This document shows positions 1-55,609 of a DNA stretch of 64,000 bases, piece after piece. Positions within the stretch are counted from its first letter, which is position 1; every line of letters starts with the position of its first letter. The notes under the pieces are model-generated. The model saw only the letters and a program-made list of their open reading frames with translations, did no database searches and was not told the DNA's origin. The position numbers were made by a program, and so were the translations under genes. This DNA comes from Apostichopus japonicus (Eukaryota > Echinodermata > Holothuroidea > Aspidochirotida > Stichopodidae), in contig NC_092571.1 of assembly GCF_037975245.1 (NCBI RefSeq), positions 23,173,917-23,237,916 on the forward strand, read 5' to 3'.

Positions 1-3000
1 AAAATGGTGATAAAATTGGAATGGTATAAAATATAAAATAACCCAAAAATTGGTGATAAAAATAATGGTGATAAAAATAATGGTGATAAAAAAAATGGTG
101 ATAAAAAAATGGTGATGGAAATGGTGATAGAAATGGTGATGGAAATGGTGATGGAAATGGTGATGGAAATGGTGATGGAAATGGTGATAAAAATGGTTAT
201 GGAAATGGTTATGGAAATGGTGATGGAAATGGTGATGAAATGGTGATAAAAAAAAATGGTGATAAAAAAAATGGTCATTAAAAAAATGGTGATAAAAATA
301 ATGGTGATGGAAATGGTGATGAGAATGGTGATGGAAATGGTAATGGAAATGGTGATAAAAATTGTATTGGAAATGGTGATAAAAAGGTGATGAAATGGTG
401 ATAAAAAAAAATGGTGATAAAAAAAATGGTCATTAAAAAAATGGTGATAAAAATAATGGTGATGGAAATGGTGATGAGAATGGTGATGGAAATGGTAATG
501 GAAATGGTGATAAAAAGGTGATGAAATGGTGATGAAAAAAATTGGTGATAAAAATATTGGTGATAAAAAAATTGGTGATAAAAAAATTGGTGGTGGAAAT
601 GGTGATAGAAATGGTGATGGAAATGGTGATGGAAATGGTGATGGAAATGGTGATGGAAATGGTGGTGGAAATGGTGATGGAAATGGAAATGGTGATGAAA
701 TGGTGATAAAATGGTGATGAAATGGTGATAAAATGGTGATAAAATTGTGATAAAAAGGTGATAAAAATAATGGTGATAAAAAAAATGGTGATGGAAATGG
801 TGATGGAAATGGTGATAGAAATGGTGATGAAAATGGTGACGGAAATGGTGATGGAAATGATGATCGAAATGGTGATGAAAATGGTGATGGGAATGGTGAT
901 GAAATGGTGATAAAGAAAGGTTATACAAAAATGGTGATAAAAAAAATGGTGATAAAAAAAATGGTGATGGAAATGGTGATGAGAATAGTGATAAAGGAAG
1001 GTGATAAAAAAAATGGTGATAAAAAAAATGATGATGGAAATGGTGATGTAAATGGTCATGAACTGGTGATGAAATGGTGATGGAAATGGTGATGAAATGG
1101 CGATGAAATGGTGATGAAATGGTGATAAAAAAAGGTTATACAAAAATGGTGATACAAAAAATTGTGATAAAAAAAATGGTGATAAAAAAAAATGGTGATG
1201 GAAATGGTGATGAGAATGGTGATAAAGGAAGGTGATAACAAAATGGTGATAACAAAAATGGTGAAAAAAAAATGGTGATGGAAATGGAAATGGTGATGAA
1301 ATGGTGATGAAATGGTGATGAAATGGCGATAAAATGGTGATAAAATTGTGATTAAAAGGTGATAAAATGGTGATAAAAAAAATGGTGATGGAAATGGTGG
1401 TGGAAATGGTGATGGAAATGGTGATGGAAATGGAAATGGTGATGAAATGGTGGTAAAATGGTGATGAAATGGTGGTGGAAATGGTGGTGGAAATGGTGAT
1501 GGAAATGGTGATGGAAATGGTGATGGAAATGGTGATGGAAATGGTGATGGAAATGGTGATAAAAAGGTGATGAAATGGTGATGAAATTATGATAAAATGG
1601 TAATGAAATGGTGATGAAACGGTGATGAAATGGTGATAAAGAAAGGTGATAAAAAAAATGGTGATAACAAAAATTGGTGATAAAAAAAATTTTGATAAAA
1701 AAAATTTTGATAAAAAAATGTTGATGGAAATGGTGATTGAAATGGTGATGGAAATGGTGATGGAAATGGTGATGAACTGGTGATGAAATGAGAATGAAAT
1801 GGTGATGAAATGGTGATGGAAATAGTGATGAAATTGTGATGAAATGGTGATGGAAATGGGGATGAAATGGGGATGCAATGGTGATGAAATGGTGATGAAA
1901 TGGTGATGGAAATGATGATAAAGAAAGGTTATACAAAAATGGTGATAAAAAAATGGTGATATAAAAATGGTGATAAAAAAAGTGATGATGGAAATGGTGA
2001 TGGAAATATTGATTGAAATGGTGATGAACTGGTGATGAAATGGTGATGGAAATGGTGATGAAATGGCGATGAAATGGTGATGAAATGGTGATAAAAAAAG
2101 GTTATACAAAAATGGAGATAAAAAATGGTGATAAAAAAAATGGTGATGGAAATGGTGATGAAATGGTGATGGAAATGGGGATGAAATGGGGATGCAATGG
2201 TGATGAAATGGTGATGAAATGGTGATGGAAATGATGATGGAAATGGTGATGGAAATGATGATGGAAATGGTGATGAAAATGGTGATAAAAATAATGGTGA
2301 TAAAAAAAATGGTGATAAAAAAATGGTGATGGAAATGGTGATAGAAATGGTGATAGAAATGGTGATGGAAATGGTGATGGAAATGGTGATGGAAATGGTG
2401 ATGGAAATGGTGATGGAAATGGTGATAAAAAGGTGATGAAATGGTGATGAAATTATGATAAAATGGTAATGAAATGGTGATGAAACGGTGATGAAATGGT
2501 GATAAAGAAAGGTGATAAAAAAATGGTGATAACAAAAATTGGTGATAAAAAAAATTTTGATAAAAAAAATTTTGATAAAAAAATGTTGATGGAAATGGTG
2601 ATTGAAATGGTGATGGAAATGGTGATGGAAATGGTGATGAACTGGTGATGAAATGAGAATGAAATGGCGATGAAATGGTGATGAAATGGTGATAAAAAAA
2701 GGTTATACAAAAATGGTGATACAAAAAATGGTGATAAAAAAAATGGTGATAAAAAAAAATGGTGATGGAAATGGTGATGAGAATGGTGATAAAGGAAGGT
2801 GATAACAAAATGGTGATAACAAAAATGGTGAAAAAAAAATGGTGATGGAAATGGAAATGGTGATGAAATGGTGATAAAGTGGTGATGAAATGGCGATAAA
2901 ATGGTGATAAAATTGTGATTAAAAGGTGATAAAATGGTGATAAAAAAAATGGTGATGGAAATGGTGGTGGAAATGGTGATGGAAATGGTGATGGAAATGG

Positions 3001-6000
3001 AAATGGTGATGAAATGGTGGTAAAATGGTGATGAAATGGTGGTGGAAATGGTGGTGGAAATGGTGATGGAAATGGTGATGGAAATGGTGATGGAAATGGT
3101 GATGGAAATGGTGATAAAAACGTGATGAAATGGTGATGAAATTATGATAAAATGGTAATGAAATGGTGATGAAACGGTGATGAAATGGTGATAAAGAAAG
3201 GTGATAAAAAAAATGGTGATAACAAAAATTGGTGATAAAAAAAATTTTGATAAAAAAAATGTTGATAAAAAAATGTTGATGGAAATGGTGATTGAAATGG
3301 TGATGGAAATGGTGATGGAAATGGTGATGAACTGGTGATGAAATGAGAATGAAATGGTGATGAAATGGTGATGGAAATAGTGATGAAATTGTGATGAAAT
3401 GGTGATGAAAATGGTGATAAAAATAATGGTGATAAAAAAAATGGTGATAAAAAAATGGTGATGGAAATGGTGATAGAAATGGTGATGGAAATGGTGATGG
3501 AAATGGTGATGGAAATGGTGATGGAAATGGTGATGGAAATGGTGATAAAAAGGTGATGAAATGGTGATGAAATTATGATAAAATGGTAATGAAATGGTGA
3601 TGAAACGGTGATGAAATGGTGATAAAGAAAGGTGATAAAAAAAATGGTGATAACAAAAATTGGTGATAAAAAAAATTTTGATAAAAAAAATTTTGATAAA
3701 AAAATGTTGATGGAAATGGTGATTGAAATGGTGATGGAAATGGTGATGGAAATGGTGATGAACTGGTGATGAAATGAGAATGAAATGGTGATGAAATGGC
3801 GATGAAATGGTGATGAAATGGTGATAAAAAAAGGTTATACAAAAATGGTGATACAAAAAATGGTGATAAAAAAAATGGTGATAAAAAAAAATGGTGATGG
3901 AAATGGTGATGAGAATGGTGATAAAGGAAGGTGATAACAAAATGGTGATAACAAAAATGGTGAAAAAAAAATGGTGATGGAAATGGAAATGGTGATGAAA
4001 TGGTGATAAAGTGGTGATGAAATGGCGATAAAATGGTGATAAAATTGTGATTAAAAGGTGATAAAATGGTGATAAAAAAAATGGTGATGGAAATGGTGAT
4101 GAAATGGTGGTAAAATGGTGATGAAATGGTGGTGGAAATGGTGGTGGAAATGGTGATGGAAATGGTGATGGAAATGGTGATGGAAATGGTGATGGAAATG
4201 GTGATAAAAACGTGATGAAATGGTGATGAAATTATGATAAAATGGTAATGAAATGGTGATGAAACGGTGATGAAATGGTGATAAAGAAAGGTGATAAAAA
4301 AAATGGTGATAACAAAAATTGGTGATAAAAAAAATTTTGATAAAAAAAATGTTGATAAAAAAATGTTGATGGAAATGGTGATTGAAATGGTGATGGAAAT
4401 GGTGATGGAAATGGTGATGAACTGGTGATGAAATGAGAATGAAATGGTGATGAAATGGTGATGGAAATAGTGATGAAATTGTGATGAAATGGTGATGAAA
4501 ATGGTGATAAAAATAATGGTGATAAAAAAAATGGTGATAAAAAAATGGTGATGGAAATGGTGATAGAAATGGTGATGGAATTGGTGATGGAAATGGTGAT
4601 GGAAATGGTGATGGAAATGGTGATGGAAATGGTGATAAAAAGGTGATGAAATGGTGATGAAATTATGATAAAATGGTAATGAAATGGTGATGAAACGGTG
4701 ATGAAATGGTGATAAAGAAAGGTGATAAAAAAAATGGTGATAACAAAAATTGGTGATAAAAAAAATTTTGATAAAAAAAATTTTGATAAAAAAATGTTGA
4801 TGGAAATGGTGATTGAAATGGTGATGGAAATGGTGATGGAAATGGTGATGAACTGGTGATGAAATGAGAATGAAATGGTGATGAAATGGCGATGAAATGG
4901 TGATGAAATGGTGATAAAAAAAGGTTATACAAAAATGGTGATACAAAAAATGGTGATAAAAAAAATGGTGATAAAAAAAAATGGTGATGGAAATGGTGAT
5001 GAGAATGGTGATAAAGGAAGGTGATAACAAAATGGTGATAACAAAAATGGTGAAAAAAAAAATGGTGATGGAAATGGAAATGGTGATGAAATGGTGATAA
5101 AGTGGTGATGAAATGGCGATAAAATGGTGATAAAATTGTGATTAAAAGGTGATAAAATGGTGATAAAAAAAATGGTGATGGAAATGGTGGTGGAAATGGT
5201 GATGGAAATGGTGATGGAAATGGAAATGGTGATGAAATGGTGGTAAAATGGTGATGAAATGGTGGTGGAAATGGTGGTGGAAATGGTGATGGAAATGGTG
5301 ATGGAAATGGTGATGGAAATGGTGATGGAAATGGTGATAAAAAGGTGATGAAATGGTGATGAAATTATGATAAAATGGTAATGAAATGGTGATGAAACGG
5401 TGATGAAATGGTGATAAAGAAAGGTGATAAAAAAAATGGTGATAACAAAAATTGGTGATAAAAAAAATTTTGATAAAAAAAATTTTGATAAAAAAATGTT
5501 GATGGAAATGGTGATTGAAATGGTGATGGAAATGGTGATGGAAATGGTGATGAACTGGTGATGAAATGAGAATGAAATGGTGATGAAATGGTGATGGAAA
5601 TAGTGATGAAATTGTGATGAAATGGTGATGGAAATGGGGATGAAATGGGGATGCAATGGTGATGAAATGGTGATGAAATGGTGATGGAAATGATGATAAA
5701 GAAAGGTTATACAAAAATGGTGATAAAAAAATGGTGATATAAAAATGGTGATAAAAAAAGTGATGATGGAAATGGTGATGGAAATATTGATTGAAATGGT
5801 GATGAACTGGTGATGAAATGGTGATGGAAATGGTGATGAAATGGCGATGAAATGGTGATGAAATGGTGATAAAAAAAGGTTATACAAAAATGGAGATAAA
5901 AAATGGTGATAAAAAAAATGGTGATGGAAATGGTGATGAAATGGTGATGGAAATGGGGATGAAATGGGGATGCAATGGTGATGAAATGGTGATGAAATGG

Positions 6001-6395
6001 TGATGGAAATGATGATGGAAATGGGATTGAAATGGTGATGGAAATGGTGATGGAAATGGTGATAAAAAGGTGATGAAATGGTGATAAAAAAATGGTAATA
6101 AAAAAAAATAGTGATAACAAAAATGGTGATGGAAATGGTGATGGAAAAGGGGATGGAAATGGTGATGAAATAGTGATGAAATGGTGATGGAAATGGTGAT
6201 GAAATGGTGATGAATTGGTGATAAGAAAAAGGGTGATGCAAATGGTGAGGGAAATGGTGATGGAAATGGTGATGGAAAAGGGGATGGAATGGTGATAAAA
6301 TGGTGATGAATTGGTGATAAAAAATGGTGATGGAAATGGTGAGGGAAATGGTGATGGAAATGGTGATGAAATGGTGAAGAAATTGGTATGCAATA
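1..6395. repeat. Degenerate 12-bp minisatellite with ~1.1-kb higher-order repeats
   Basis: The whole stretch is built from variants of the 12-mer TGGTGATGGAAA and its relatives (TGGTGATAAAAA, TGGTGATGAAAA). Longer blocks recur in the same order. The block with a row of three GATAAAAAAA-type variants followed by TGTTGATGG appears near 1690, 2545, 3240, 3670, 4330, 4755 and 5465. Spacings of 1088-1132 bp between corresponding blocks (for example 2808, 3940 and 5030) show a higher-order unit of about 1.1 kb. The - strand stays open for hundreds of codons because a 12-bp unit keeps frame and has no stop in that orientation. The resulting His/Phe/Ser/Ile-rich translations are not evidence of a protein. 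The array begins before the window. Confidence 0.95.
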
Positions 6396-12288: not shown

Positions 12289-13385
12289 ACATGTACCTGC
12301 TATCTACCAACATATTAATACCAAGTATAAATAAATTCTGACATTCGGTTGGGGAGTTATTAGCATTTGAATATTTTGACGTTTGACCCCATTACCTGAT
12401 TGTTATTCATGAAATGAGCATCAAAATCAATAGGGTTCTACTTAATATGGCCCATCTATGTACCAAGTTTGACTTCAATCCAACTTGCCATTCTTGAGTT
12501 TTCATGTTAATGAGCCAAGGGCGTCACTTACACAAACACGCACACGCACCCAATAGCACCTCTCACACACTCACACGTTTTGACCCCTCCCTTAGTCATG
12601 GACTTCCGTGGGGTACCCCGGCATTGGTCGTTTGACCAATAAAAGTCAATATTAAAAAATCTACAAAACTAAGGTAATCAGTATTGCTCTATATATATAT
12701 ATGCAATTAGTTGCTCATAATACGGTATTTGTTTTGTTTATATTACGGATTTATACATAACGCTAACCCCTAACACCCTAACCTCCTGATAACCAACTAC
12801 AATCTCATAACCCTAACTCTAGACGATTAGGCCGTAGGTCAACTTAGATATTAGATAAGACACTAGTTTCTACTCGCTAGAATTGCAACTGACACTGAAC
12901 TTTTTATGTTCCGTGTTCTCATGTGTATTCACTGTTTTTTTTTTTTGGGAGAAGGGGGTGTTCACTATTTTCGTATTAAGTCTGCTCAATTCGAGTAGTG
13001 AAATGGGATTGCTTTGAAGGTGGTCATTATTGAACTTTCAAGCACATTTTAGGCAATGCTTACAAAGCTGTCTACATGCATGTGGTCATATAGTTTGTAA
13101 TGTATCAAGGAAAGTCTGGAAATGAGAGAGATGCGTTTTGCTTGCAGCCCTGGCAGTTTTTTGTTTTCATGCCAAGGGGAATAACAACAAATTACTTTAC
13201 ATTATGGACTATAATGTTGACATAAAGGTGTGATTAACGACGGTATTATATGATACCTATCTCATCATGTTGGAACTCAATTTTCAATTACAGGTAGACA
13301 TACTTACTTCTTAAATTACATAACTAAAATTCAATAAAACTTAAACAAATTCATGATAGCGATTAAAAAGCACTTACTTCCAGTG
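12289..13385. other. Non-coding stretch with a degraded repeat
   Basis: 12360-12640 carries wording (TTTGACCCCATTACC, ACCAAGTTTGACTTCAATCC, CA-rich run) that resembles the repeat at 61200-62950, in particular CCAAGTTTGGCCTCAATCC there. The rest shows nothing recognisable. Confidence 0.4.
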
Positions 13386-13520
13386 CACTCTAAAAAACGT
13401 GTTTAGGAATTGGACATTTTCCGTGATTATAAACATGTCCTAAACCTAAACACTCCGTAAACCGTGTTTAATATGATTACACTTAGTGTATGATTCCTAA
13501 ACACTTCAGTGTAAAAACAC
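13386..13520. repeat. Left terminal and subterminal repeats of the 9.9-kb element
   Basis: The perfect 22-bp terminal repeat is followed by alternating GTGTTTA and TAAACAC words (for example CCTAAACACT near 13448 and CCTAAACACTTC near 13498). The same words, in the mirrored order, fill 23105-23291. Confidence 0.75.
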
Positions 13521-13670
13521 TTTTTAATAGAGAGCCTGATCATCCTAATTAGCATATCGATGCGGATTGGTTATTACCATCACGTGCCTAGAATCGTTCG
13601 TTCGTTCACCAAGGCCTAAAGCGTCACAATCACGATCGTTCGGAAAGAATTTTCTAAACAGTTTTCAAGG

Positions 13671-13764
13671 ATGACAAGGATGTATCCCATCGACGTTGAT
13701 GAACAGAATTTCCGTAAAAGGCTGACTGGGAAGGTGCATCCAGATGCCATCGACATTTTCATTG
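13671..13764 (+). CDS. Candidate first coding exon of the uncharacterised gene
   Basis: An ATG at 13671 opens a 31-codon frame (MTRMYPIDVDEQNFRKR, then LTGKVHPDAIDIFI) that runs into a good donor, ATTG|GTAAAT, at 13764. The upstream 110 bases contain a reverse CCAAT word (ATTGGTT, near 13568) and CACGTG (near 13581), which would suit a promoter. It lies just inside the left end of the 9.9-kb TIR element. Assignment to the same gene as the downstream exons is inferred from strand and position. The connecting exons between 13764 and 18385 were not found. No domain is recognised. Confidence 0.4.
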
Positions 13765-13809
13765 GTAAATAATGATTCTTCCTTAACATTGGCATTAGAA
13801 ACAAATAAT

Positions 13810-16800
13810 TCGAAGCAATCTCGACTTCGGTCCGAAGATCACATATAGCCTAGGCTAACTGTATGTTACAACTTACAGTGTTGAGCTGTGCTAGGCCCAC
13901 GCACGAGTATAACGTGTTTCCTATGCACTATCACGTTAGGCTATCGCATTGGCTAGTGTCAGTGAACATCCTGACAATTCATCAAATTACTGGGCGAGTA
14001 TAAATGACAAATGTGCTAGGCCCCTTCCAAGCACATACTTGGTGTCTACTTGTAGACCTTCATCTAATGCCCATATAAGGGCACATTGGAGTATCATCAT
14101 GAACATGAACATATTTATTGTTAAGTTGAACTACAATTCAATCCCACATGCACAGATGCACAACTGAGACCTTTCTTTTAAAATGAACTGAAAACCTGAC
14201 ATTTTTCATGCACAGGCCAAATTTTCCATGCAAAGATCCAACATAACACCCTGTACATGTGCATCTGTGCACGTCAAACCCATCGATATCGAAGACATTA
14301 ATTTGATGTATTTGAATGGTTCATATACTGTAGGCAATCGAAAAGAATTCGCTGTCTGTCATTCTGTTCCAATTTCTTATACTGGCAATAACAGCAATTT
14401 TTGACATCTTTTTTCAATTCATAACATTTCCACAAAATTACTTTTGTTAATGTTACCTGAATTTTCACTTGGCGAATGCAAACATCATTCTCATTGATCA
14501 GTGATCACCTACAAAAAAGTGTTTTGATCCCATTTCTCCATTTCTATGCATTTTATGTGACAAGGTTGCCCAGTATACAACCCCCCAAACAAACAAATCC
14601 ATTTAAAAGATGATTCTCTACAGTTTGATGCCCATAGTTTCTGAATTGACAGAACAATATTGGGTATATACATCTTGAAGTGTTCCTTCCAGCTTAAAAC
14701 CCTTTACCTTTTTTGCATGCAAATTGGACATGATTTTTCTGACCATTTTCACAAATTGGTAACTCCCAGACCCACCCCCCCCCCAGCCTTGAAAGTGGTC
14801 TCATTTGAAAGAGGAAAGTATAAGCTTTCATTTGATACTAAATTTAGGGGGGGGGTACAGTAGGCTGTAGTGGATGAAATTTCTGAAAAGTGTCCCCTTT
14901 TCCCTTGTGACCTAAAAATTTGACCTTTTGACCTCCAATTTGACCCCGGCATTCCCAAAATTATAATAGAGCCCCAAAGAAAGGGAACAGGTCCCAATTT
15001 TCTCAGGAACTCCTCCTGTCCTGTTCTTGCCATTGGCAAAGTGTCAGGAGCATCCCCCCTCTCATTTGTGAGAAAAGGGGAAAATTTGGTGAAAATTAGG
15101 TCAATTTCAAGTCAAATGAGGTAAAACAAGGGCGATCGGAAACGTCTCGGTAGCTGCAGGCAGATTCAGTGATTTGACCTTCAATGACCTCTGATGACCA
15201 TGGAATGACCGTCAGCATTTTTGCCACGTTATGTTTAGTACATGTACAAAGTTTCATTTAGATACAACATTGCTGAGTTATTTGACCATGGAACTACTAC
15301 TAATTTTGGTAATTCTAGGGTCTTTTGCCTAAAACTAGTTAAATTTACCAAAAATAGACCATTTTCCAGATATTTTAGACCATATCCTTACTTGGAGACC
15401 CATCCAAATTTATTTTGAGTATTTTTGATAAATCTTCGGAATTTCCTACCGAAAATTTCCATATTTCTTCAAATTTTCGGGGTCAGACTATAACTCAAAT
15501 CAACTATTAAAAATCTATTTTGTGATCGGTGACCATTCATCCTATGAATCTGTGCTAAATTGACTCGAAACAACACGAAAGTTGGGGAAGCTACCATTTA
15601 GCGTTTTCTGGGGTTTTATTTTTGCAAATCTAGCGTTTTTTCTTCAACTGTCGCTGGTAACGCTGGTCAATGGTATTTCCGGTCGCCGTCAACATTTGTA
15701 AACAAACAAATACAAACATCAACAGCAAGAGAAATTGCCGATTTTTTCAGGTAATTTCTTCATTCCAGTAAGTAACACCCTCCCTGAAGGTATTCTAGCA
15801 CTGTTTCGAGCTCTAAATATCAAAATGCCTAGCCAAATCGGAGCCATAATCGAGGTGGGTCGAATCTTGTTTTTTGTCCTTCCAGCCTAACTCTAGCATG
15901 TACAAAGTCTATAGAGGGGTCGAAGCCTAAGCTACATATAAGCCTAGCCGTAGTTCCATACGATCAAAGACTCATTTTGATTGGGAAAATTAGGGATTTT
16001 GGTGGTATAAAATGGGATAAACTGTATGCATGTGGTGAGGTTGGCTTCTTAGGACCCTCTACTATCACCAACTTGGGTGTCAAGTGCAATAATTAGAATA
16101 GATTCTATATGACATTACAACTTACGAGTGTGTTCAGTGTAAGTTGGTTATGCGGTAATGTCAGAATAAGCCAGTGACAGACAGAAACAAAATGATTTGT
16201 AGAAAAGATTACTGTAGCTTTATTGAGAAAATTAAACACACAAGAAACAGATGAAAAACGGGAAATTACGTTCATATTTTTCTCAAGTTGAATTTGGGGA
16301 TCCGCGTACTGATTTCGGAACCGGGTACTGTCATCGTCGGGCAGGTAACCGTTGCAAACACTGCCTAGGTCACAATTTAGAAAAATTGTCACAATATCAG
16401 GTGCAATTGCAGAAAACTCTGCCCCTCCACTGCAACTCTTCACGTCTATACACGCCTATAGGCAGAGTAGCAGTCACCACCCCACCTCCACTAGAAAAGT
16501 GTAGGCGGAGACTTCGCCGCCACGCCTCCATCAAGAGAGACGAATCCCAGTCCGTAACTGCAACTCCATCTCTGCCCTTCTACCACAGAATGACAAACTC
16601 CATGTTAAATAATCGGGTAGTTAATACGGAACACGTGTGTATTGTTATTTTTCAAAACAGTGAAAAGTGAATATTTATCTCCTACCAACCTGCCTTCGCC
16701 TCCATCAGGTTTACAGGGGGTCACTCGGTGATCAAGCAGGGTATTCTGCAATTACTACCAAAATCGAATGCAATGCTTAGTAGTAGTAAGTTGAGTCTTT

Positions 16801-18380
16801 GGGGGGTATATAATTTTATCGTTTTTGACTGAATATCATATACTGTACGTACTGTACGTCATATATTAAAATGATGAAACACAATTTTTCTCAACGAGTA
16901 GGGGTGCACCGTACAGGAAGTTTGATTCGGGCCAGAACTGGACTTTATATGCAATACATCAGTGTACTGTACCATTAAGCTAGATGTGAATGCAATAGAG
17001 TGATAGGCAATGACCCAGGAGCTACAGTATGATAATGAACTGAAGCAGTAGCAGAGTGGAATCAAGGAAGCTGAATGAAGAATTTTTGTTTGAGTGGTGG
17101 ACAAATCATCAGTCGACTAATAATATGATTGACTGCCGTGTACTCAGTAAATGCATCCTGGGTCAATATGGACCCAAATAATCATTGAATATAAAAAACA
17201 ATAGTACTCAGCCATCTTACATGCTACAACATTCATTTAGGTATTGAAATTAAATTAGCTAAGACCATGCGTTTGTGTAGAAAACAAATATAAAGGGGGG
17301 TTACTGTGATTTTTATTTAGTGGGTGGGGCTCAAATGTCAAAGGTCAATCTGAAAATGACGTAATTTGGCTAAAAATTGCTGCTTGCATCAAAAAAATCG
17401 TGACAGAAAATAAAAGTTGAACAGACCCCCCCCCCCCCCCATTATATTTGGATAAAATGCTAACATGTTTTGAACATATTCTGAGCATTTCAGCAATATA
17501 TCTATAGAGGGTTCTGAGAAAAATGCAAATGTCCTCAAAATTGCACAGGGCACATTTTCTGTGACGTTGTGGTCCGATCACACTGATGTCACACGGTATG
17601 CTTCGAAAACAGCTTCACGTAAACAATGCATCGGTTGAAGAACTTCCAGCATTTGGAAGTAGTGGTACATCTTGTACCGTTTCAGCTAGAGCCTTTAATT
17701 CCGGTATATTCATGGAAAGATATCGTTAAGTAGATTTTATCGACGCATCGCTACTCGGTATCCCCTCCGAAGCCACGTGGTGAGCGGACAGTAGAACCGT
17801 TCAGACTTCAGTTGCAGGCTATAAATACAGGGCTGGCATTATTGCGTAATGAGGATCGCATTTTACTGCGACTCACAACTTCAGAAGTCGGGATTGTGAG
17901 TAGGGCTGTTGAATAATGAATGACTCTGATGGAATAATTTTACATATTTTGGAGATCGGGTATCATGAAATTATGGAAATTGAAGCGTGATGTGAATCTC
18001 CCACTCAGTTTTTCTGTATTTTGAAAAGTTCAAGGTGAAGTTATGAACAATAATTTAACGCTTCCACTGGATGGTCAATTCTCAAACTGGGCGGCCAACT
18101 TTGAAACTGGGCAGGGAATGTGAAAATGAAATTCAAACCGGGCGCCAGGGCCAGAATACTGCCAAGTTAGTGAGCCTCATGAAATTTTTGAGGAGCGCAG
18201 TTCAGTTTGCTCTCCTGCAGAAATTAGGGAGTGTTGTTGAGGAGCACAATGAACTGCTCTCCCAGAGCCGTTTTAAGGAGCGCGTAGGAGCGTGATTGCA
18301 CTGGTATTGAACATCATGGCAGGATGGAAGAAATGTTAATGTGATAATTATTGTGTTTTTGTCCAAAGGGAGCCAAGATG
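13810..18380. other. Intron-like stretch inside the TIR element, mostly unassigned
   Basis: No certain exon was found. 14880-15250 contains scattered TGACCT/GGTCA words like those at 61000-62700. A short candidate exon (ATGCCTAGCC..., nine more codons to a GTGGGT donor) lies near 15823. A 139-codon + frame at 16251-16670 lacks recognisable similarity. Poly-C and poly-G runs occur at about 14777, 14846 and 17427. Confidence 0.35.
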
Positions 18381-18384
18381 ACAG

Positions 18385-18546
18385 TCTCGCAGAGATGAAG
18401 CAGAATTTGGTGGAGGAGATGGGGAAGAGAACCCGGAAAAGGCAAGACTGGCGTACCTGCAAAGGAAAACTTTTGACCTGGGAAGAAGGGAAGAGAATGG
18501 GGCACTGGCCTTTGAGACCTACCCCTTTCTGCTGGAAGAGTACTTT
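18385..18546 (+). CDS. Internal exon, uncharacterised protein family
   Basis: One frame is open from 18382 to a strong donor (TACTTT|GTAAGT at 18546). It encodes a charged linker followed by EENPEKARLAYLQRKTFDLG and then LAFETYPFLLEEYF. The acceptor is probably GACAG at 18384, because an in-frame TGA lies just before it (18379-18381). The pattern of a short basic helix, RKTF, then a hydrophobic YPFLxEEYF matches my general recollection of a large uncharacterised family in fish and marine invertebrates, some members annotated as SAMD3-like. That resemblance is from memory and not verified. Codon phase at the donor is 0. Confidence 0.6.
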
Positions 18547-18784
18547 GTAAGTCACAAAGTTAATTCTGTAACAGTACACACGATCGCAGAAAAACAATCG
18601 GAACTATTTTGTTTTGAAGATGTTCATGAAATCATCAGTCCCAGTTGTTCATTATTTAATGTCATCCAAACTTTTGTGGTAAACTTTCTTTAATGAGAAA
18701 ACTGGCTAGGTGGAAATCAGCCTCATTCATACTCTACTAGAGACATTGGCTCATCACTTGCAGTCGTGTTGAAATTGTTAAGTG

Positions 18785-18875
18785 AAGCAACAAGATCATC
18801 CGCAACTGGAAAAAAAGGCCGCTGATGGCGCTAATTATCCCGAAATTGGTTACAAAATGAGCCGTAAACCCCTGA
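18785..18875 (+). mobile_element. Fragment of the SINE family seen at 19769
   Basis: ATCATCCGCAACTGG, GGCCGCTGATGGCGCTAATTA and AAAATGAGCC match, in order, the body of the SINE at 19769-19980. The tRNA-like head is missing. Confidence 0.6.
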
Positions 18876-19439
18876 CTATCCACCTACCTACCCAACTCAA
18901 TGCCACATCAACACCCAGGTATACAAATAATTCTCTGTTGATTGATCCTCTCTCCATTCCAAAATCTGTATAAATTAGTGAAAAGTTCATGTCACCATTG
19001 TTAAAGGTGGTAATTTAGGTTTATAACTTTATACTGTGGCATACTGTACACACCAAGCCATGCAACAAATGACTGAAGTATGACTTCTTTCAACAATTAC
19101 ATTTTATGCATGAGGGACTGTGGTCCAGAATAGGAAAAAATCATGATCGTAGAAGGAAGCAATAATCCCGGACTAATATCATGAACGGGAAAGGCTTATC
19201 TCACATGTGCTCATTGGTGGAGATGAATAACAAATCGCTGGAGAATTTGCCCAATTTATTTTCTGTTTGTCTCATTCATACATGATCAGTGTTGTGCATG
19301 ATATTCAGCAAAGTCAACAAAAGTGCCCTGCCAATCCATTTGTTGAGTTTATGAAGAATGACCCAGTGATGGTGTGACAGACCTGGGCCAAGACATAATG
19401 CATTGCAATTGTGAAATTTGTTTCTTCCCAAATTCAGGA

Positions 19440-19515
19440 AAGATGAGTTTGTCAATGTACTTCAACAGAAGCATCGATCCCGAATACCAGGATTAGCATC
19501 TCTGGCACAGTTATG
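19440..19515 (+). other. Ambiguous exon-like stretch
   Basis: A good acceptor (TTTGTTTCTTCCCAAATTCAG) ends at about 19438. One downstream frame reads KDEFVNVLQQKHRSRIPG and then stops. No donor follows and the frame does not match the phase left by the exon ending at 18546. It could be a decayed exon or chance. Confidence 0.2.
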
Positions 19516-19554
19516 ATCGTTCAAATTATGTTGTTTCCACAGATCATTTAAGAG

Positions 19555-19656
19555 TTCAACCTCCAAAGACCAGATATGGACCTGGGGCAGTACGAACAGA
19601 ACTGGAACTCTTTGAAAGAAGGGCTCATGAGATGTGCTGAACAGGACGAACATGTT
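19555..19656 (+). CDS. Internal exon, uncharacterised protein family
   Basis: Thirty-four codons in phase 0 at both ends read FNLQRPDMDLGQYEQNWNSL and then KEGLMRCAEQDEHV, ending at the donor GTT|GTACGT. The better-looking acceptor TTTCCACAG at 19542 would put a TAA in frame, so the start is placed at the weaker AAGAG at 19554. Alternatively a small indel has damaged the exon start. It joins in phase with the exons before and after it. Confidence 0.5.
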
Positions 19657-19768
19657 GTACGTATCTTTTTTTCAGTAGCGTGTTTAGAAAAGTGGGTAAA
19701 GGCTTAGAATGTCACTCACAACTGTTGAGTGAGTGAGTTGTGAGAATGTCACTCATAACTGTTTAGAC

Positions 19769-19980
19769 TGAGTGGTTAGCTCAATCAGTAGAGCGTCCGC
19801 TTTCCACCCGAAAGGTCTGGGTTCAATTCCTGGCTGGGTCATACCAAAGACTTGAAAAATGGAACCTACTGCCTTGTGCTTGGTGCTCAGCATATAAATT
19901 AGGTCAAACAAGCCAGTGATCCGCAACTGGGAAACAGGCTGCGGACGTCGCTAATTAAAATGAGCCATGAAACTAACTAA
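19769..19980 (+). mobile_element. tRNA-derived SINE, second family
   Basis: The head contains TGGTTAGCTCAATCAGTAGAGC (A-box region) and GGTTCAATTCC (B-box). The acceptor-stem partners GACTGAG and CTGGGTC pair only partly and the anticodon arm is distorted. A body with CCGCAACTGGGAAACAGGC and AAAATGAGCC follows. The tRNA folds too poorly to be a functional gene. It lies in an intron of the uncharacterised gene. Confidence 0.75.
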
Positions 19981-20350
19981 CTCACAACTGTTGAATTGAC
20001 AATCCAGAGAACAAAATGGGATTGTAGAAACTAGAAAAATGCATTCCTGTGTCGTTATACTCGGAACGCTGTGCGGAGAAGAGAAAGTGAGCAATTTCCA
20101 GTGTGTGCATCCAGGATAACACTAAGCTTCCGCATCCTACAACGGTTTTACATGGCTGCCTGAAACCGCTGATAACTTTGAACAATGTTAGTTAGAAAGT
20201 TCTTGATTGTGGAGGCTAGTTGTTACCACCAATTTGACCCCTTCATCTGCAAAGCTCAGGAATGCTCCTGTGACATTTTGAGGTTTACAGTGAGCTATGT
20301 TTGATTGTTGTCACTGCGTATACCTCAAAATTATATTCTCCTTTCCACAG

Positions 20351-20446
20351 ATCACTGATGATACGGACCTCCTGATCTATCTGGCTGCCAAGGTTGCTGT
20401 CGGCAAGGGGATCAAGAAACTGCATGCTGCAATCTCTGTGGCTGAT
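20351..20446 (+). CDS. Internal exon, uncharacterised protein family
   Basis: Thirty-two codons between TTTCCACAG and GAT|GTGAGT, phase 0 at both ends. They encode ITDDTDLLIYLAAKVAVGKG and then IKKLHAAISVAD. It runs directly in phase into the last exon at 21764. The leucine-rich first half followed by a more polar strand is what is seen at the start of the C-terminal region of the fish and invertebrate family mentioned for the exon at 18385. This is one of the cleanest exons of the gene. Confidence 0.7.
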
Positions 20447-20625
20447 GTGAGTAAATTCGATACTTGGGGGCCTATAATTATTGGGGTCCTACTTTATGAG
20501 GAAAGGGACAAAATTATCATTGAACTCTCAACGTAGAGTATAGTCATTTTACTACACTGTATAATACCACAACACATAAATAACTGTGTGTTAGTGCCTA
20601 CACACCGTGTGGTGCACAATCTTCT

Positions 20626-21085
20626 TGTGATGAAAACTTGTGGTTATTGGTTTGCTGTTTCCGCGAGCGAACGGTGAGCTGGTGACAACTCGTCATTCGG
20701 TGCTGTTGTCATGTGGTGTTGTCGTCATGTGGTGATGTGTCATGCAGTGCTGTTGTCATAATAAAATAACAGGGGGTTAGGGGGTACGCCATCTAACGTA
20801 CCGTACCGATTGGACCGGCGAGCGTGTTTATATTTTATAAGGGATTACCCATGATCTTTTTGGATCGTTAGGAAAATCCGAGCATTTTATAGTTTGTGGG
20901 TAATGGCTTTACTGCCGTTTAAACAATACAACACCACATGACAACAGCACCGCATGACGAGTTGTACCAGCTCACCGTTCACTCGCGGAAACGGCAAACC
21001 AATAACCAATAACCACAAGTTTTCATGACATAACGTCGCGGAAACGGCAAACCAATAACCACAAGTTTTCATGACATAACGTTGC
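20626..21085. repeat. Inverted repeat, ~95-bp arms, with a tandem echo in the right arm
   Basis: The left arm (about 20627-20722) contains AAAACTTGTGGTTATTGGTT, CGGTGAGCTGGTGACAACTC and CTGTTGTCATGTGGTGTTG. The right arm (about 20928-21030) is its reverse complement with a few changes. A further tandem copy of the outer 45 bases follows (about 21035-21080). The spacer is about 200 bp. It resembles a small foldback element in the intron between the exons at 20351 and 21764. Confidence 0.75.
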
Positions 21086-21339
21086 CGTTTTCGCGTTCCA
21101 TACATATGATGTTTGTGACCCTTGAGATATACATAGCTGGTAGCTACAATGTTATTGTACATGGCGATGCAACTGTTACGACATCGCTATGACTCACTAT
21201 GAGTTTCCTGCCCACTGCTTGAACCTATTGCTTTCCGTTGCAGAGAGCACTAAATGGAAGGACTCTACTGAGGCCCGGAGGAGGGTGCGATAATTATCAC
21301 TAGCGTATCCCTCCAAGTCACTGATGTTTTCTGCATATA

Positions 21340-21406
21340 TTTTTATTGGGCACTTGGGCCATGGGGGTGTTTGAACACCCAAAACGCCCCCTTTGGCTAC
21401 GCGCCT

Positions 21407-21440
<34 letters not shown>

Positions 21441-21475
21441 TATATATATATATATAGATATAGATATAGGTAAAA
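21340..21475. mobile_element. hAT-type MITE right end plus TA/TAGA microsatellite
   Basis: TTTGGCTACGCGCCTG at about 21393-21408 is the terminus of the MITE family at 24681. It is followed immediately by a (TA)n tract with TAGATA interruptions to 21470. Confidence 0.55.
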
Positions 21476-21763
21476 TGGCGGTCCGGGAGCAGGAGGGGAT
21501 TGGTCACGCCCCTGCCCTGATTATATGAGCACTAGTCTTAGAAGAGCAGGCGAGTTGTCGCCGGTGTTCATCCAAGACCAACGCGGTCAGGGATCCTCGT
21601 ATGAGTCCAAGTGGTTTCCTGAACCTCAGTCACTAAACTAAAACTAAAATAATATAGATTTCTAGGTTACTGGCCAGCATTCGCCACTATATTCACCACT
21701 GTTCCCAGTAAAAATTCCACCCCTTCACAAGATCTTGATCATTTTTCATATTTTTGTCTCCAG

Positions 21764-22057
21764 GTGACATTTATCCAGAAGAGCTCCGCCAAAGAGGCTC
21801 CACGTTTGGTGCTCATCCGTCATGAGTCATCAGAATACAGGAATGGCTTCCTACTCTTCAACAGCCTTACTATTGAACTGCATAAAGACAATCTAATGGA
21901 GCTTGTGTTGCTCCTTATTCAGTGCTACTACGCGTGGGACCTGACGTGTCCCATTCAATACCAAATACTGGGGTTCCTTCAGTTATATCTATTGAAGGAC
22001 AGTGATTCAGATTTCAAGAAGTCTGCAAACTTTCTGAGATTTCATAAAAAAATATGA
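21764..22057 (+). CDS. Last exon, uncharacterised protein family (C-terminus)
   Basis: It follows a clean acceptor (TTTTTGTCTCCAG) and ends at TGA, giving 97 codons. The sequence begins VTFIQKSSAKEAPRLVLIRH, then a strand-rich stretch (NGFLLFNSLTIEL), then a hydrophobic segment (LMELVLLLIQCYYAWDLTCP) and IQYQILGFLQLYLL. The order of strands, hydrophobic helix, YP/CP turn and final LxFLQ helix is typical of the C-terminal domain of an uncharacterised protein family with many copies in fish and marine invertebrates. I cannot name a biochemical role. It lies 1.2 kb inside the right end of the TIR element. Confidence 0.7.
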   Translation: MTFIQKSSAKEAPRLVLIRHESSEYRNGFLLFNSLTIELHKDNLMELVLLLIQCYYAWDLTCPIQYQILGFLQLYLLKDSDSDFKKSANFLRFHKKI

Positions 22058-23104
22058 TGACATAACTAATTAGGATTTGTACCATTACCATACCCCCTTG
22101 TGTTTACTTGCTTACTACCCCATGCCCAAAAAGAGGGTTTGCTAAGTTTGGCAGATGAACAACGACCTAATGGTGGTGCTCTACCACAAGAATTTTCCTC
22201 CATTGCTACTGGCTGCTACTTTCCTCGGATACTGCTAGAGACAAACAGTTGTTACCTGTCATCTTTGTCTCTCTGTCTCTCTCTCATTGGCTGTTAAACA
22301 GGGGCATACCCATAGGTTGATTTTGGGGGGTTGCACCCCCCCCATGACTTAGGGTTGAATTCTAAAAAACGCATTGAGAGGCCTTCAAAATACATTTTTT
22401 TTTCTGCCATGGGGGATGCCAGTGCTGTGAACCATCTCGGCTTTGGAAGTCGGAACCCCTAGTCTATTTTTGTATGCGCTCCCCCTTCCTTTTGATAAGA
22501 GGGGGGGTGAACAGTCGAAGAAACAAAACCACCATTATGACGATTTGTTACTGGAGCATGAGCACTTCAACAAGAATATACTAGTGCTTTGGGAGGGGAG
22601 GTCTGAGAGGATGGGGGTATGTTGTGCCCATCCATGCTTTACATTTTTATTGGGGGGGGGGTATACATATGTATAACACACATCTTCATGTTTCCTGACT
22701 AACATGTTTGAGCGCCCTCTCCAAGTGTTGAGAGGAACCCAAATAGATGTAAAGTGGAAAAATATTGAGAGCATTCTTTTGTGTACTTTATTCAAATCAA
22801 TTGGCTGCTTATTGTCAATATGCAGTATTGTCACCTGTTGGGCACAGTAGGAGCTGTAGTCAACGGCGTCTGGAAATGTCTCTGGCATTCCAAAAGAAAC
22901 AAATGCAGTGGAGGAGCAGTGGCTATAGTTGTGAATGAGGAAGTGGGTTATTTTCGGAGGAACATGGTAGCCTGGCGAGGAGGCTGTACTGCTTCTGATG
23001 ACAGGTGAAGTCATGTGAAGCTTGCAGACATTACTGTCGTCTGCACTGCAATCAGGAGTGCGTTTCAGTGAACTGAGCTTCATGCAGAAAGGCACGGTGA
23101 ATTG
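22058..23104. other. 3' flank inside the TIR element
   Basis: No further exon was recognised. A partial hAT-type terminus (CAGGGGCATACCCATAGG, near 22300) and several poly-G runs are present. A 186-codon - strand frame at 22535-23095 has no recognisable similarity. Confidence 0.4.
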
Positions 23105-23291
23105 AGGTGTTTAATATCTAAACACTATTCCTCAATCTAAACATTTACAGATCTAAACATGTTTAGTCTATAAACAGAAAAATGTCTTATGTCTAAACAT
23201 TTGAAGTGTTTAGGAATTAAATGCGTTTATAAAGTGGGGTCAGAAAAGTGTTTAGAAAAGTGTTTAGAACCTAAACACGTTTTTTAGAGTG
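23105..23291. repeat. Right subterminal and terminal repeats of the 9.9-kb element
   Basis: About ten TAAACA/TGTTTA words occur here (for example CTAAACATGTTTAG near 23152 and AAAAGTGTTTAGAA twice near 23245-23268). They end in the perfect 22-bp inverted repeat at 23270-23291. Confidence 0.75.
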
Positions 23292-23828
23292 TGACAAAGG
23301 TTATACAAATCTGTCAACTCACAGATCTGAAAAAAAAACTTAAGTAAATAATAAAGGTATAACCAGCAGAAATTATCAACAAGAAGATATCACAAATATG
23401 TATGTTTTTATGTGTGTTTGTTTCTATGTAAATGAAAAATGGTGCCACCCTAATAACGCGATGATCATCAAACGCCACTCTCGTTCAACCAACATTGACA
23501 TTTTATATGTCAGTTTACGACCCTATCATCTGCCACGGGAGTTTCACATGTTATTGTTCACACCATATATGTGCCCAATCGCAACGTATAAAAACCGGCT
23601 GCATTGGAACTTTCTGATATCATTCATGAATATGAGGCCTCTGCCCCGGATGCTCTGACAATCATCAATGGAGACTTTAATTATCGTATAGCTTCAAGAA
23701 GAGCAGTGTGTATTACTACCAACATGTGAAGTGTGCAACCAGGAATACTGCAACCCTTGACTCACTTTACTCCAATGTTAAGGACGCATACCTCTCTATT
23801 CAGCTACCCAAACTTGGAAAAGCCGATC

Positions 23829-24973: not shown

Positions 24974-25738
24974 TCGTCAAATTTCTAGGTTACACTCATC
25001 AAAAGCTGTCGGTCCAGATCATATATCATCACAGGATTTAAAACATTGTGCAATAGAACTGGCCGATATATTTACTCTCATTCATTATCGATCTTTTAAA
25101 CTTGGTTACATTCCTTACACCTATGCCGAAGAAATCAGCAGAAATATCATGCATGAATGACTTGCGCCCGTTAGCACTTACGGCTGTTCCAATGAAATTA
25201 TGTGAACGTTTATTTGTAAAGCATTTTAACTCGTTTCTAGCTCCATTTCTAGACCCACTACAGTTTGCATATCAATCTAGTCGTATACCTGTGAAGATGC
25301 CATCCTTTTAATTCTCCACAAGTTATACTCTCACTTAGAACACTCTAACACTTCTTCTGCGCGTGTCATGTTTTTCAATTTCTCCTCTGCCTAATACTAT
25401 ACAACCGCATAATTTAGTCACTAAGCCTCTTATAATGGACACTATTTCTAGATGATTTAATTAATTTGATCATGCAATATCTCACTAAGAGAACACAGTA
25501 TGTTAAACTTAGTCCCACTTGTCGTTCAGATCAAATTATGTTTAATACAGGGGCCCCTCAAGGGACTGTCCGGTCCCCATTTCTCTTTACATTATATACT
25601 TCTGATTGCAGATCTCTGTCGGAGAGGTGCCCTCTCATCAAGTTTGCTGATGATACGGCCATGGCTGACCATATCCATGGTAGTGATGACAGGGAATACC
25701 TGCGCCAGCTTCAGTCATTCGTAGATTACTGTGACTAT

Positions 25739-26026
25739 CAGGCGCGTAGCCAAGGGGGGGGAAGGGGGCCTGCCCCCCCCCCTTGAGCATATTTTTAATT
25801 TTTTTTTAAATGTTTTTATGATATCGCTAGTATTTTCAAAAGAAAAAATGCTAAGATGCAACTTACAAGGCCTGGGAAGTGCCATTTCCAGCGATCTGGG
25901 AGGCATTTTCAGCCAAAATTTTCTTGTACGCTTCGCGCCAACTGATGGTGGCGCTACGCTTAGGTAGTTTGCAATGCCGAATCTACAGTTTCGCCCTCCC
26001 TTGGCAAATTCCTGGCTACGCGCCTA
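25739..26026 (+). mobile_element. hAT-type MITE, copy 2
   Basis: It is closely similar to the copy at 24681 and lies in the same orientation in the same LINE. The flanks are a perfect 8-bp duplication, GTGACTAT (25731-25738 and 26027-26034). The last base of the right terminus is changed to A. It interrupts the region just after the FADD motif of the LINE. Confidence 0.95.
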
Positions 26027-36302: not shown

Positions 36303-36755
36303 TTACAATTTACTGAGTAATTCCTGTCCATCGAGATTTGAAGGCAGCAGTTTGTAAGGATTCAAAATACTTTTCCGATCGAGTAAGGTTTTCATCTTCT
36401 TCATCAAGTTTATAGCATTGATTGGTTTACTATAGTGTAAACTATCCCTTCTTTGAACGCCAATACCGACCTCTGAGGAAATACTGCCACCAACATCTTT
36501 CACACGACGAAATAAAAAGGACTCAATGAGCTTGCTAAATGATGGATGTGTACGGAAGGTGACCAGATTTACATGCAGGCCACCTTCTGCAAAATGGCCA
36601 AATCCAGCAATACATGATGACAGGTGGCTGAACTGGGTTTTTACTTCAGTTAATATTTGGACGTATTTATCATGAGGCACCGTGACGTCGTACTTATACG
36701 CAAATCCTGCTCGTTTCACTGCCACGCCTATATTTTCACGATAAGACCACAACAT
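36303..36755 (-). CDS. D2HGDH-like terminal exon, second copy (alternative or relic)
   Basis: A fully open 150-codon exon with a phase-0 acceptor (TTTTCAACAG) and a TAA stop. It is homologous along its length to the last exon at 43715-44176, about 45% identical by eye: LWSYRENIGVAVKRAGFAYKYD, then GFGHFAEGGLHVN, GSISSEVGIGVQRRD, SILNPYKLLPS and LLSKL. The two metal-ligand histidines (GHFAEGGLH) and the glutamate of SSEVG are kept. The histidine after that glutamate, part of the EHG motif of this FAD-oxidase C-terminal family, is valine here. It lies downstream of the first terminal exon on the same strand with the same entry phase. It could be an alternative last exon, the remains of a tandem gene copy, or a pseudogene. 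No other exons were found between 36755 and 43715. Confidence 0.7.
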   Translation of the reverse strand: MLWSYRENIGVAVKRAGFAYKYDVTVPHDKYVQILTEVKTQFSHLSSCIAGFGHFAEGGLHVNLVTFRTHPSFSKLIESFLFRRVKDVGGSISSEVGIGVQRRDSLHYSKPINAINLMKKMKTLLDRKSILNPYKLLPSNLDGQELLSKL

Positions 36756-36912
36756 CTGTTGAAAACAATATTAAACCTTCACAGAGGCATTCGTACCCAA
36801 ACTCAACTGAAACTTATATTACAGTAGCCCTCCCCAATATATATACGGTTCTGAGTTGAATAATAAAATAGCGCCACCGAATCCTTAAGACTACACAAAA
36901 GGTGGCGCAAGA

Positions 36913-43714: not shown

Positions 43715-44176
43715 TTATAACTTGGATAGGTTTCTCTGTGTAAGCTCACTGTCCATCCAAGATGGTAATACTTTGTAAGGATTTAAAATACCCTTTGGGT
43801 CAAAGGTCAATTTCACTTTCCTCATGACCTCAACCCCCTTGGGAGACTTGCTGTAGACAATCTCGTCCCTGCGTTGGATCCCGAGACCATGTTCCGAGCT
43901 TATACTTCCACGGAGGTTCTGGATCCAGGGATAGAGGAAGCCCTCGACTTTCTCCTGAATTTCTTTATCTAACTGTGGCATTATGACATTCAAGTGTATA
44001 TCCCCCTCTGCCAAGTGACCGTAGCCCACCACGCATGGAGAGTTGGGATGCAAGACACCCCGCAGTTCTGTAATCACATCAAAAAATTTCTCATGCGGTA
44101 AGGTGATGTCATACTTGTAGCAGATTCCCTCTCGTTTCAGTGCGACGGCTATCCTCTCGCGATAGGACCATAGATG
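43715..44176 (-). CDS. D-2-hydroxyglutarate dehydrogenase-like, terminal exon
   Basis: The gene encodes a mitochondrial-type FAD enzyme of the family that oxidises D-2-hydroxyglutarate to 2-oxoglutarate. This exon (153 codons plus stop, phase-0 acceptor TCTCACACAG) is the C-terminal FAD-oxidase domain. It reads LWSYRERIAVALKREGICYK, then the metal site VVGYGHLAEGDIHLN, then GSISSEHGLGIQRRD with the Glu-His of the active centre, and DPKGILNPYKVLPS. The canonical GDGNLHLN is AEGDIHLN here, so the protein is a divergent paralogue rather than a standard D2HGDH. The 10-residue C-terminal tail (LTQRNLSKL) is shared with the second copy at 36303. Confidence 0.9.
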   Translation of the reverse strand, partial: HLWSYRERIAVALKREGICYKYDITLPHEKFFDVITELRGVLHPNSPCVVGYGHLAEGDIHLNVIMPQLDKEIQEKVEGFLYPWIQNLRGSISSEHGLGIQRRDEIVYSKSPKGVEVMRKVKLTFDPKGILNPYKVLPSWMDSELTQRNLSKL

Positions 44177-50370: not shown

Positions 50371-51358
50371 GCGTGACATGGATCTTTAAGCCATGATAAA
50401 GCCATAATGGCAAGGCTCATACATCTGTGTGTGACATGGATCTCTAAGCCATGATAAAGCATCGATGACAAGGCTCATAGAGCTGTGTGTGACATGGATC
50501 TCTAAGCCATGATAAAGCCATAATGGCAAGGCTCATACAGCTGAGTGTGACATGGATCTCTAAGCCATGATGAAGCCATAATGGCAAGGCTCATACAGCT
50601 GAGTGTGACATGGATCTCTAAGCCATGATGAAGCCATAATGGCAAGGCTCATACAGCTGAGTGTGACATGGATCTCTAAGCCATGATGAAGCCATAATGG
50701 CAAGGCTCATACAGCTGAGTGTGACATGGATCTCTAAGCCATGATAAAGCCATAATGGCAAGGCTCATACAGCTGAGTGTGACATGGATCTCTAAGCCAT
50801 GATAAAGCCATAATGGCAAGGCTCATACAGCTGAGTGTGACATGGATCTCTAAGCCATGATGAAGCCATAATGGCAAGGCTCATACAGCTGAGTGTGACA
50901 TGGATCTCTAAGCCATGATGAAGCCATAATGGCAAGGCTCATACAGCTGAGTGTGACATGGATCTCTAAGCCATGATAAAGCCATAATGGCAAGGCTCAT
51001 ACAGCTGTGTGGGACATGGATCTCTAAGCCATGATAAAGCCATAATGGCAAGGCTCATACAGCTGAGTGTGACATGGATCTCTAAGCCATGATAAAGCCA
51101 TAATGGCAAGGCTCATACAGCTGAGTGTGACATGGATCTCTAAGCCATGATAAAGCCATAATGGCAAGGCTCATACAGCTGAGTGTGACATGGATCTCTA
51201 AGCCATGATAAAGCCATAATGGCAAGGCTCATACAGCTGAGTGTGACATGGATCTCTAAGCCACGATAAAGCCATAATGGCAAGGCTCATACAGCTGAGT
51301 GTGACATGGATCTCTAAGCCACGATAAAGCCATAATGGCAAGGCTCATACAGCTGTGA
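50371..51358. repeat. 58-bp minisatellite, 17 units
   Basis: The unit GTGTGACATGGATCTCTAAG continues with CCATGATAAAGCC, ATAATGGC, AAGGCTCATACAGCTGA. GACATGG recurs exactly every 58 bp from 50375 to 51303. Units differ by one or a few substitutions (for example ATGATAAAG or ATGATGAAG). Each contains the palindromes CATGG-CCATG and GCCATAATGGC. The array is in an intron of the D2HGDH-like gene. Repeats directly abut each other without spacers, so it is not a CRISPR array. Confidence 0.97.
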
Positions 51359-51552
51359 TGTGACAGTTAATCAGTGATAGCTGCTATCAATCTAAATAGT
51401 GTCATTTCAACAATTATTGATGGCGAGAGAGCTGATATTGCCAAGAAACACTAACTGTACAAGCCCTTCTAGTTGGTGGGTTGTACTTTAGATTAGGACA
51501 GGAATATGTCTATTTAAATGCAGAATTCTTCTGCACACTGTAATTATCTTAC

Positions 51553-55601: not shown

Positions 55602-55609
55602 CTGAAAAT

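Follow-up and report, generated by a model that had tools for sequence, protein, structure and literature searches.

A Probable Transposase-Less CACTA-Like Transposon Retaining a Gene 2 Homologue in Apostichopus japonicus

Plant CACTA/EnSpm transposons, such as En/Spm with its proteins TNPD and TNPA, carry CACT...AGTG ends, subterminal words, and two genes, and include transposase-less derivatives. We present here the analysis of a 64,000-nucleotide stretch of the Apostichopus japonicus genome (RefSeq assembly GCF_037975245.1, contig NC_092571.1, positions 23,173,917 to 23,237,916), called the window below, in which the segment 13386-23291 is very probably a transposase-less cut-and-paste DNA transposon from the CACTA-like (CMC/CMCT) group, a relative of two-gene elements that would be moved in trans. 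In the available parts of the literature, TNPA of En/Spm is required for transposition together with TNPD, which stabilizes TNPA on DNA, and the animal relatives of CACTA make 2-bp duplications and encode further proteins without matches elsewhere (PMC1636069). The CMCT clade has CA..TG ends and duplications of 2 to 5 bp and includes fungal ESTA elements with TA duplications (PMC12730594). CIDE-N and transposase domains are both listed as over-represented in Hydra, with no link drawn between them (PMC7642931), and features of Chapaev elements are given in PMC4079192, again as far as those texts were available.

The element is bounded by exact 22-bp terminal inverted repeats (Table 1), the similarity of which extends past 22 bp to 35 nucleotides at 83%, and each end is flanked on its outer side by a TG. 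Copies of the word GTGTTTAG/CTAAACAC number three in the left 500 bp, five in the right 500 bp, one in the interior, and two in the remaining 54,094 bases of the window. The 22-bp ends, the TG dinucleotides, and the subterminal words had been noted in a first-pass annotation of the same letters and were confirmed in the sequence.

The genome (671,581,487 bases in 35 contigs, designated C3, C5, and so on) was searched with the 22-mer at ≤2 mismatches, with the reversed sequence as control. Six matches were found, all exact, with none in the control. They form three inward-facing pairs on three contigs, each pair reads CACTCT...AGAGTG at its termini, and each surrounds the same sequence of about 10 kb with the same gene; the earlier proposal that other end pairs might bracket homologues of the gene was thus borne out in 3 of 3 pairs. 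The three copies align in pieces at 97.5 to 98.8% identity, with similarity ending at the termini, and their flanks (30 bp per side compared) are unlike one another. Over 9,879 ungapped columns, private changes number 59 in the window copy, 20 in the C5 copy, and 62 in the C16 copy, and a single column differs in all three. The window copy is inserted in a dispersed repeat, and two paralogous empty sites continue across its junction (C11:4410596-4410870, 85%; C18:19491709-19491957, 78%), the C18 site having TT at the position of the filled-site TG. For the C5 copy, the joined flanks gave no match spanning the junction among the best 40 of 238 candidates. The window element is a recently mobile element, and the three pairs, 2-bp duplications, and empty sites uphold the first-pass suggestion of a large CACTA-like transposon. 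That an inverted repeat arose by chance around an ordinary gene has a negligible probability; nothing was found in its favor, no other match to the 22-bp end occurs in the window at ≤3 mismatches (0.00 expected, 100 shuffles), and the three paired copies and empty sites rule it out.

The CA...TG terminal inverted repeats and the duplications within the 2- to 5-bp range (TA, TA, and TG in 3 of 3 copies) are those of the CMC/CMCT group. The plant-type En/Spm hallmarks, a 3-bp duplication and a CACTA core, are replaced here by 2-bp duplications and a CACTC core. A looser end pattern recovered the same six ends plus one on C22, with one match in the reversed control. The C22 end is a 221-bp fragment of 93% identity with TA outside, and no partner end was found in the 20 kb of sequence inspected.

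The enclosed gene, called gene 2 below, was modeled from the sequence with five exons (Table 1), from an ATG 285 bp from the left end to a stop codon ending 1,234 bp from the right end, in agreement with the approximately 285 bp and 1.2 kb given before. All five exons are present in all three copies (15 of 17 matches at E≤0.01); the other two matches are weak homologues at C13:13082745 (31%, E 6.8e-4) and C9:13775333 (29%, E 0.0026). The in-frame TAA in exon 3 means that the window gene is not intact unless the stop is avoided by splicing, a correction to the gene as first called between the ends. By hand count, the copies differ in 10 codons by 11 changes, 8 of them amino-acid changing (including the stop) and 3 silent, a comparison of low power in which gene 2 appears to show no sign of constraint. 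Should the stop have a single origin, an element whose gene 2 was already broken would still have moved, as far as an unrooted three-copy tree can indicate. Within intron 4, nested inverted repeats of 27 to 43 bp lie at 20626-21076, a region in which the C16 copy is longer than the other two by 53 and 103 bp; they are possibly a small element within the transposon.

Relatives of the gene occur beside candidate transposases. The C13 homologue sits 8.4 kb downstream of a stop-free 822-amino-acid (aa) open reading frame (ORF) with a weak match to Transposase_21 (PF02992), and an ORF between the two matches CIDE-N (E 4.1e-6). No terminal repeats were recognized at this locus (C13:13068001-13098000), the pieces of which were searched apart, so that a spanning pair could escape. 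Downstream at the C13 locus, repeated matches are spaced about 3.26 kb apart.

A second, high-copy two-gene family, termed C3-type, has ends CACTCTAAAAAA.../CACTGTAAAAAC... similar to those of the window element. Its copies on C3 (C3:18518363-18533614) and C7 are 15.3 and 13.9 kb long, and the C3 copy, with ends CACTCTAAAAAATAAACGG.../CACTGTAAAAACTAAAAGGG, contains an 872-aa transposase ORF with the last exon of gene 2 downstream. A genome-wide search gave 27 left ends and 25 right ends (≤2 mismatches; 0 in reversed controls), forming 22 pairs by eye. The 2-bp duplications are exact in 20 of 20 pairs sampled from these 22 (18 TA, 2 TG), the same preference for TA over TG as in the window family (2 TA, 1 TG). 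C7:7.13M and C7:11.1M have common flanks and therefore represent one insertion. The C3 and C7 copies are 99.7 to 99.8% identical in two aligned blocks. Very recent activity of the C3-type family is suggested by its sequences. DDE transposases of the CMC/CMCT group are characterized by C(2)C and H(3-4)H motifs. In an alignment of just the C3 and C13 ORFs, with residues assigned by eye, Asp, Asp, CxxC, DPxH, and MRxEAKH are conserved; C13 has the first His of the H(3)H motif (HDPMH), which C3 lacks (PPDPAH).

Two further relatives bear on the window copy. The C16:29.5-Mb element (16.7 kb) has gene 2 downstream of its transposase, imperfect terminal repeats (CACTGTAAAAA versus AACTGTAAATA), and the words GTGTTTAG/CTAAACAC in three copies in the left 500 bp, five in the right 500 bp, and two in the interior, close to the window pattern; the C3 element has no GTGTTTAG words. 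The C7:6.95-Mb relative (6.9 kb) keeps its ends, a piece of the transposase N terminus, and the gene 2 last exon, with the rest of the transposase gone, and can serve as a model for the origin of transposase-less forms.

Linkage between the two genes was measured with the 822-aa C13 ORF as query, scoring the best 55 of 375 candidate transposase places. The match is stop-free in 48 of the 55 and has stops in 7, with open frames of 478 to 890 aa, mostly 800 to 890 aa. Gene 2 last-exon places were collected with two queries at E≤1, yielding 148 for the C3-type exon (best 150 of 267 scored) and 19 for the C13 exon (27 of 27 scored). Of the 55 transposase matches, 39 are followed on their own strand by a gene 2 place at ≤16 kb, and one of these 39 has a second place on the opposite strand. 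Randomly shifted gene 2 places gave a mean of 0.155 and a maximum of 2 (200 rounds, with 28 Mb used as the size of contigs of unknown length). The suggestion that the family is carried by transposons is supported by this linkage; the alternative wording, that it is the transposition machinery itself, did not hold in the sense of a transposase, as no transposase model matched. A host gene captured as cargo by a nonautonomous transposon could account for the 4.6-kb first intron of the gene model in an element without detectable transposase. We nevertheless consider capture very unlikely, because relatives of the last exon are found downstream of, and on the same strand as, transposases in some ten hand-grouped families, and gene 2 therefore looks like a transposon gene by descent.

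Membership of the window gene in this family was assessed by its C-terminal domain. A profile built from 14 gene 2 exons, none from the window, matches the window ORF at 21653-22054 with an E value of 3.4e-6, the runner-up among 1,203 ORFs being at 1.3. The C13 exon recovers the three window-type copies at E of about 8e-5, and BLASTP against the C13 homologue gives 34% identity over 70 columns; with the C3-type exon as query, the window-type copies are not among the matches at E≤1 (best 150 of 267 scored). The gene 2 at C9:13.77 Mb is of the same family as that at C13 (93% over 101 aa). The homologous C-terminal domain that defines the family is present in the window gene. A CIDE-N-like N-terminal part is optional, was found by Pfam at C13 but not in the C3 ORF, and had no match in the window element. 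Pfam matches among the 14 members fall in six families with one member each (best, PAH, E 0.00056), and the profile against PDB sequences reached E 0.16 at best. The C-terminal domain of one relative (L058) is predicted to fold as three strands and three helices (beta3-alpha3; mean predicted local distance difference test score [pLDDT], 85.1), with no PDB or viral structure match at E≤0.001; the window exon 5 domain (mean pLDDT, 66.6) had no PDB match at E≤0.001. Structure thus does not yet give the function. By homology, the window gene belongs to the family of transposon second genes and is not a recognizable transposase.

The variant in the window is low-copy in this genome (three full copies and one end fragment), and the many copies are those of related families. 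The window protein may resemble a many-copy (SAMD3-like) family of fish and marine invertebrates. The first-pass view that mobility explains such numbers fits the gene family, which belongs to transposons, and does not fit the window variant itself. A literature search found no description of gene 2 in the available texts; its coverage lay outside Repbase and most subscription journals, and absence from print is not established.

Could the enclosed gene be the transposase of an autonomous element? It is the sole evident gene and is carried by all three paired copies, but it has no Pfam match at E≤10, including to any transposase model, its homologues adjoin a separate large tnp2-like transposase, and the in-frame stop is common to the window and C5 copies. 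We therefore regard autonomy through this gene as very unlikely indeed. No transposase gene was detected elsewhere in the element. With the C3 and C13 transposases as tblastn queries, the window was free of matches at E≤1, and the C16 copy gave one 24-aa match at chance level (E 0.51). The gene 2 pieces of other families gave weak matches, at E 0.26 to 0.90, in the C5 and C16 copies, and six ORF pieces of the C16:29.5-Mb element (four from its transposase, two others) reached E 0.21 at best in the window, always outside the element. The window element probably was moved by the enzyme of a relative, since it has no detectable transposase gene of its own. In a version of this same explanation, to which we give an even chance, an internal deletion removed its own transposase shortly before the spread of the three copies, as the C7:6.95-Mb element with its ends, gene 2 last exon, and mostly missing transposase would illustrate; against this version, neither gene 1 nor the CIDE-N ORF has left a recognizable remnant in the window element.

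Full family members encode a tnp2-like transposase (gene 1) and, downstream on the same strand, the multi-exon gene 2; the window copy retains gene 2, the ends, and the subterminal words, with no detectable gene 1. How the element moved in trans and what gene 2 does are inferred. The transposase of a relative would recognize the repeated GTGTTTAG words together with the CACTCTAAAAAA ends, excise the element, and reinsert it at a TA or TG dinucleotide, with a 2-bp duplication as the result. By analogy with TNPA of maize En/Spm, gene 2 may encode a regulator that binds the ends or an accessory component of the transposition complex.

Several observations weigh against this explanation. No transposase-bearing element with window-type ends that could serve as helper was found genome-wide, and the C22 end fragment has no gene 2 alongside. 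The exon structure of the window gene is a prediction from sequence, and its homology to other gene 2 sequences covers the last exon, exons 1 to 4 being putative parts of gene 2. The transposase matches fall below the Pfam cut-offs (Transposase_21 at E 0.056 and 13.1 bits for the 822-aa ORF, and at E 0.00058 and 19.5 bits against a cut-off of 28.6 for the 872-aa ORF), and a search of PDB sequences with the C13 transposase gave nothing at E≤1. The C16:29.5-Mb transposase is broken by stops, and the DNA of the window element is unalignable to that family. With the two gene 2 queries, none was found downstream in 16 of 55 transposase matches, and the 39 linked cases form ten families by hand grouping, 20 of them in one high-copy family, and so are not independent.

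More broadly, we offer tentatively, at somewhat less than even confidence, that a two-component make-up is widespread among animal CACTA-like transposons. Beside a tnp2-like transposase there would be a fast-evolving second protein, in some cases with a CIDE-N-like N terminus and with a beta3-alpha3 C terminus, acting as a TNPA-like end-binding or anti-silencing partner. Many "uncharacterized" multi-copy proteins of marine animals and fish might then be gene 2, and gene-2-only elements could act as mobile regulators, either providing the accessory function or competing for it. The analysis traces a gene without a Pfam match to a large and recently active class of animal CACTA-like elements, in which it is the second gene and keeps its position in about ten families of one genome (grouped by hand). 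The window element is a clean gene-2-only derivative with empty sites, and use of a second protein by animal CACTA relatives, as with TNPA in maize En/Spm, becomes directly testable. Annotators should be cautious, as such multi-copy "genes" can be transposon genes.

Table 1. Coordinates of the element, its gene model, and its genomic copies (window positions, except for the copies, which are in contig positions)
Feature	Position	Strand	Remarks
Left 2-bp target-site duplication TG	13384..13385	.	single TG when joined flanks aligned with empty sites
Left 22-bp terminal inverted repeat	13386..13407	+
Left subterminal words GTGTTTAG/CTAAACAC	13399..13504	.	starts 13399, 13446, 13497
Gene 2 exon 1 (model)	13671..13764	+	ATG, donor GT; same in all three copies
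Gene 2 exon 2 (model)	18404..18546	+
Gene 2 exon 3 (model)	19543..19656	+	in-frame TAA 19549-19551 in two copies (window, C5); C16 copy without a stop at this place
Gene 2 exon 4 (model)	20351..20446	+
Gene 2 exon 5	21764..22057	+	conserved C-terminal domain and stop; hidden Markov model of 14 relatives, E 3.4e-6
Right subterminal words	23118..23278	.	starts 23118, 23206, 23248, 23260, 23271
Right 22-bp terminal inverted repeat	23270..23291	-
Right 2-bp target-site duplication TG	23292..23293	.
Copy on C5	16039205-16049508		10,304 bp; duplication TA
Copy on C11 (window)	23187302-23197207		9,906 bp; duplication TG
Copy on C16	36237036-36247262		10,227 bp; duplication TA

The rest of the window contains the following features. 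Two FAD-oxidase_C exons (36303-36770 and 43715-44224, both on the minus strand; 46% protein identity) and an FAD_binding_4 exon (55351-55683, minus strand) are probably a diverged tandem duplication of one dehydrogenase-like gene, which we take to be D-2-hydroxyglutarate-dehydrogenase-like. A long array at 51-6387 is built of a AAATGGTGATAAAA-like unit, shows a higher-order periodicity of roughly 431 bp, and has a very strong GC skew, and a 58-bp tandem repeat at 50373-51365 has 17 copies with 97% match. The ORF at 25436-25786 (plus strand) matches RVT_1 below the cut-off of 29.6 (E 1.8e-5, 25 bits) and is a probable retrotransposon relic. ARAGORN found no tRNA genes in the window, so a tRNA-like stretch near 19,765-19,850 is at most like a short interspersed nuclear element by eye.

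Compared with the C3-type family of the same genome, the window element shares the CACTCTAAAAAA end, the 2-bp duplication with TA favored over TG, and the C-terminal domain of gene 2, whereas the C3 element has an 872-aa transposase ORF, lacks GTGTTTAG words, and is 15.3 kb long. Plant En/Spm is alike in its 5′-CACT...AGTG-3′ ends, subterminal words, two element genes, transposase (here perhaps weakly related to Transposase_21/tnp2), and transposase-less derivatives; it differs in its 3-bp duplication, against 2-bp TA/TG here, and the window element is without detectable transposase. The likeness of gene 2 to TNPA would be one of role. Fungal EnSpm-like ESTA elements share the placement in the CMCT clade and the TA target duplication, but they are described from fungi, as three families with a TET/JBP dioxygenase gene, and a gene 2 of the present kind is not described in the available part of that report (PMC12730594). 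SmTRC1 of Schistosoma mansoni is likewise an animal element, related to Transposase_21 as the present relatives may be, with a 2-bp duplication and further element-encoded proteins, and differs in its 54-bp terminal inverted repeat starting with CCC. The further proteins of SmTRC1, according to the part of the report available, match nothing in other elements (PMC1636069), whereas gene 2 recurs here across families.

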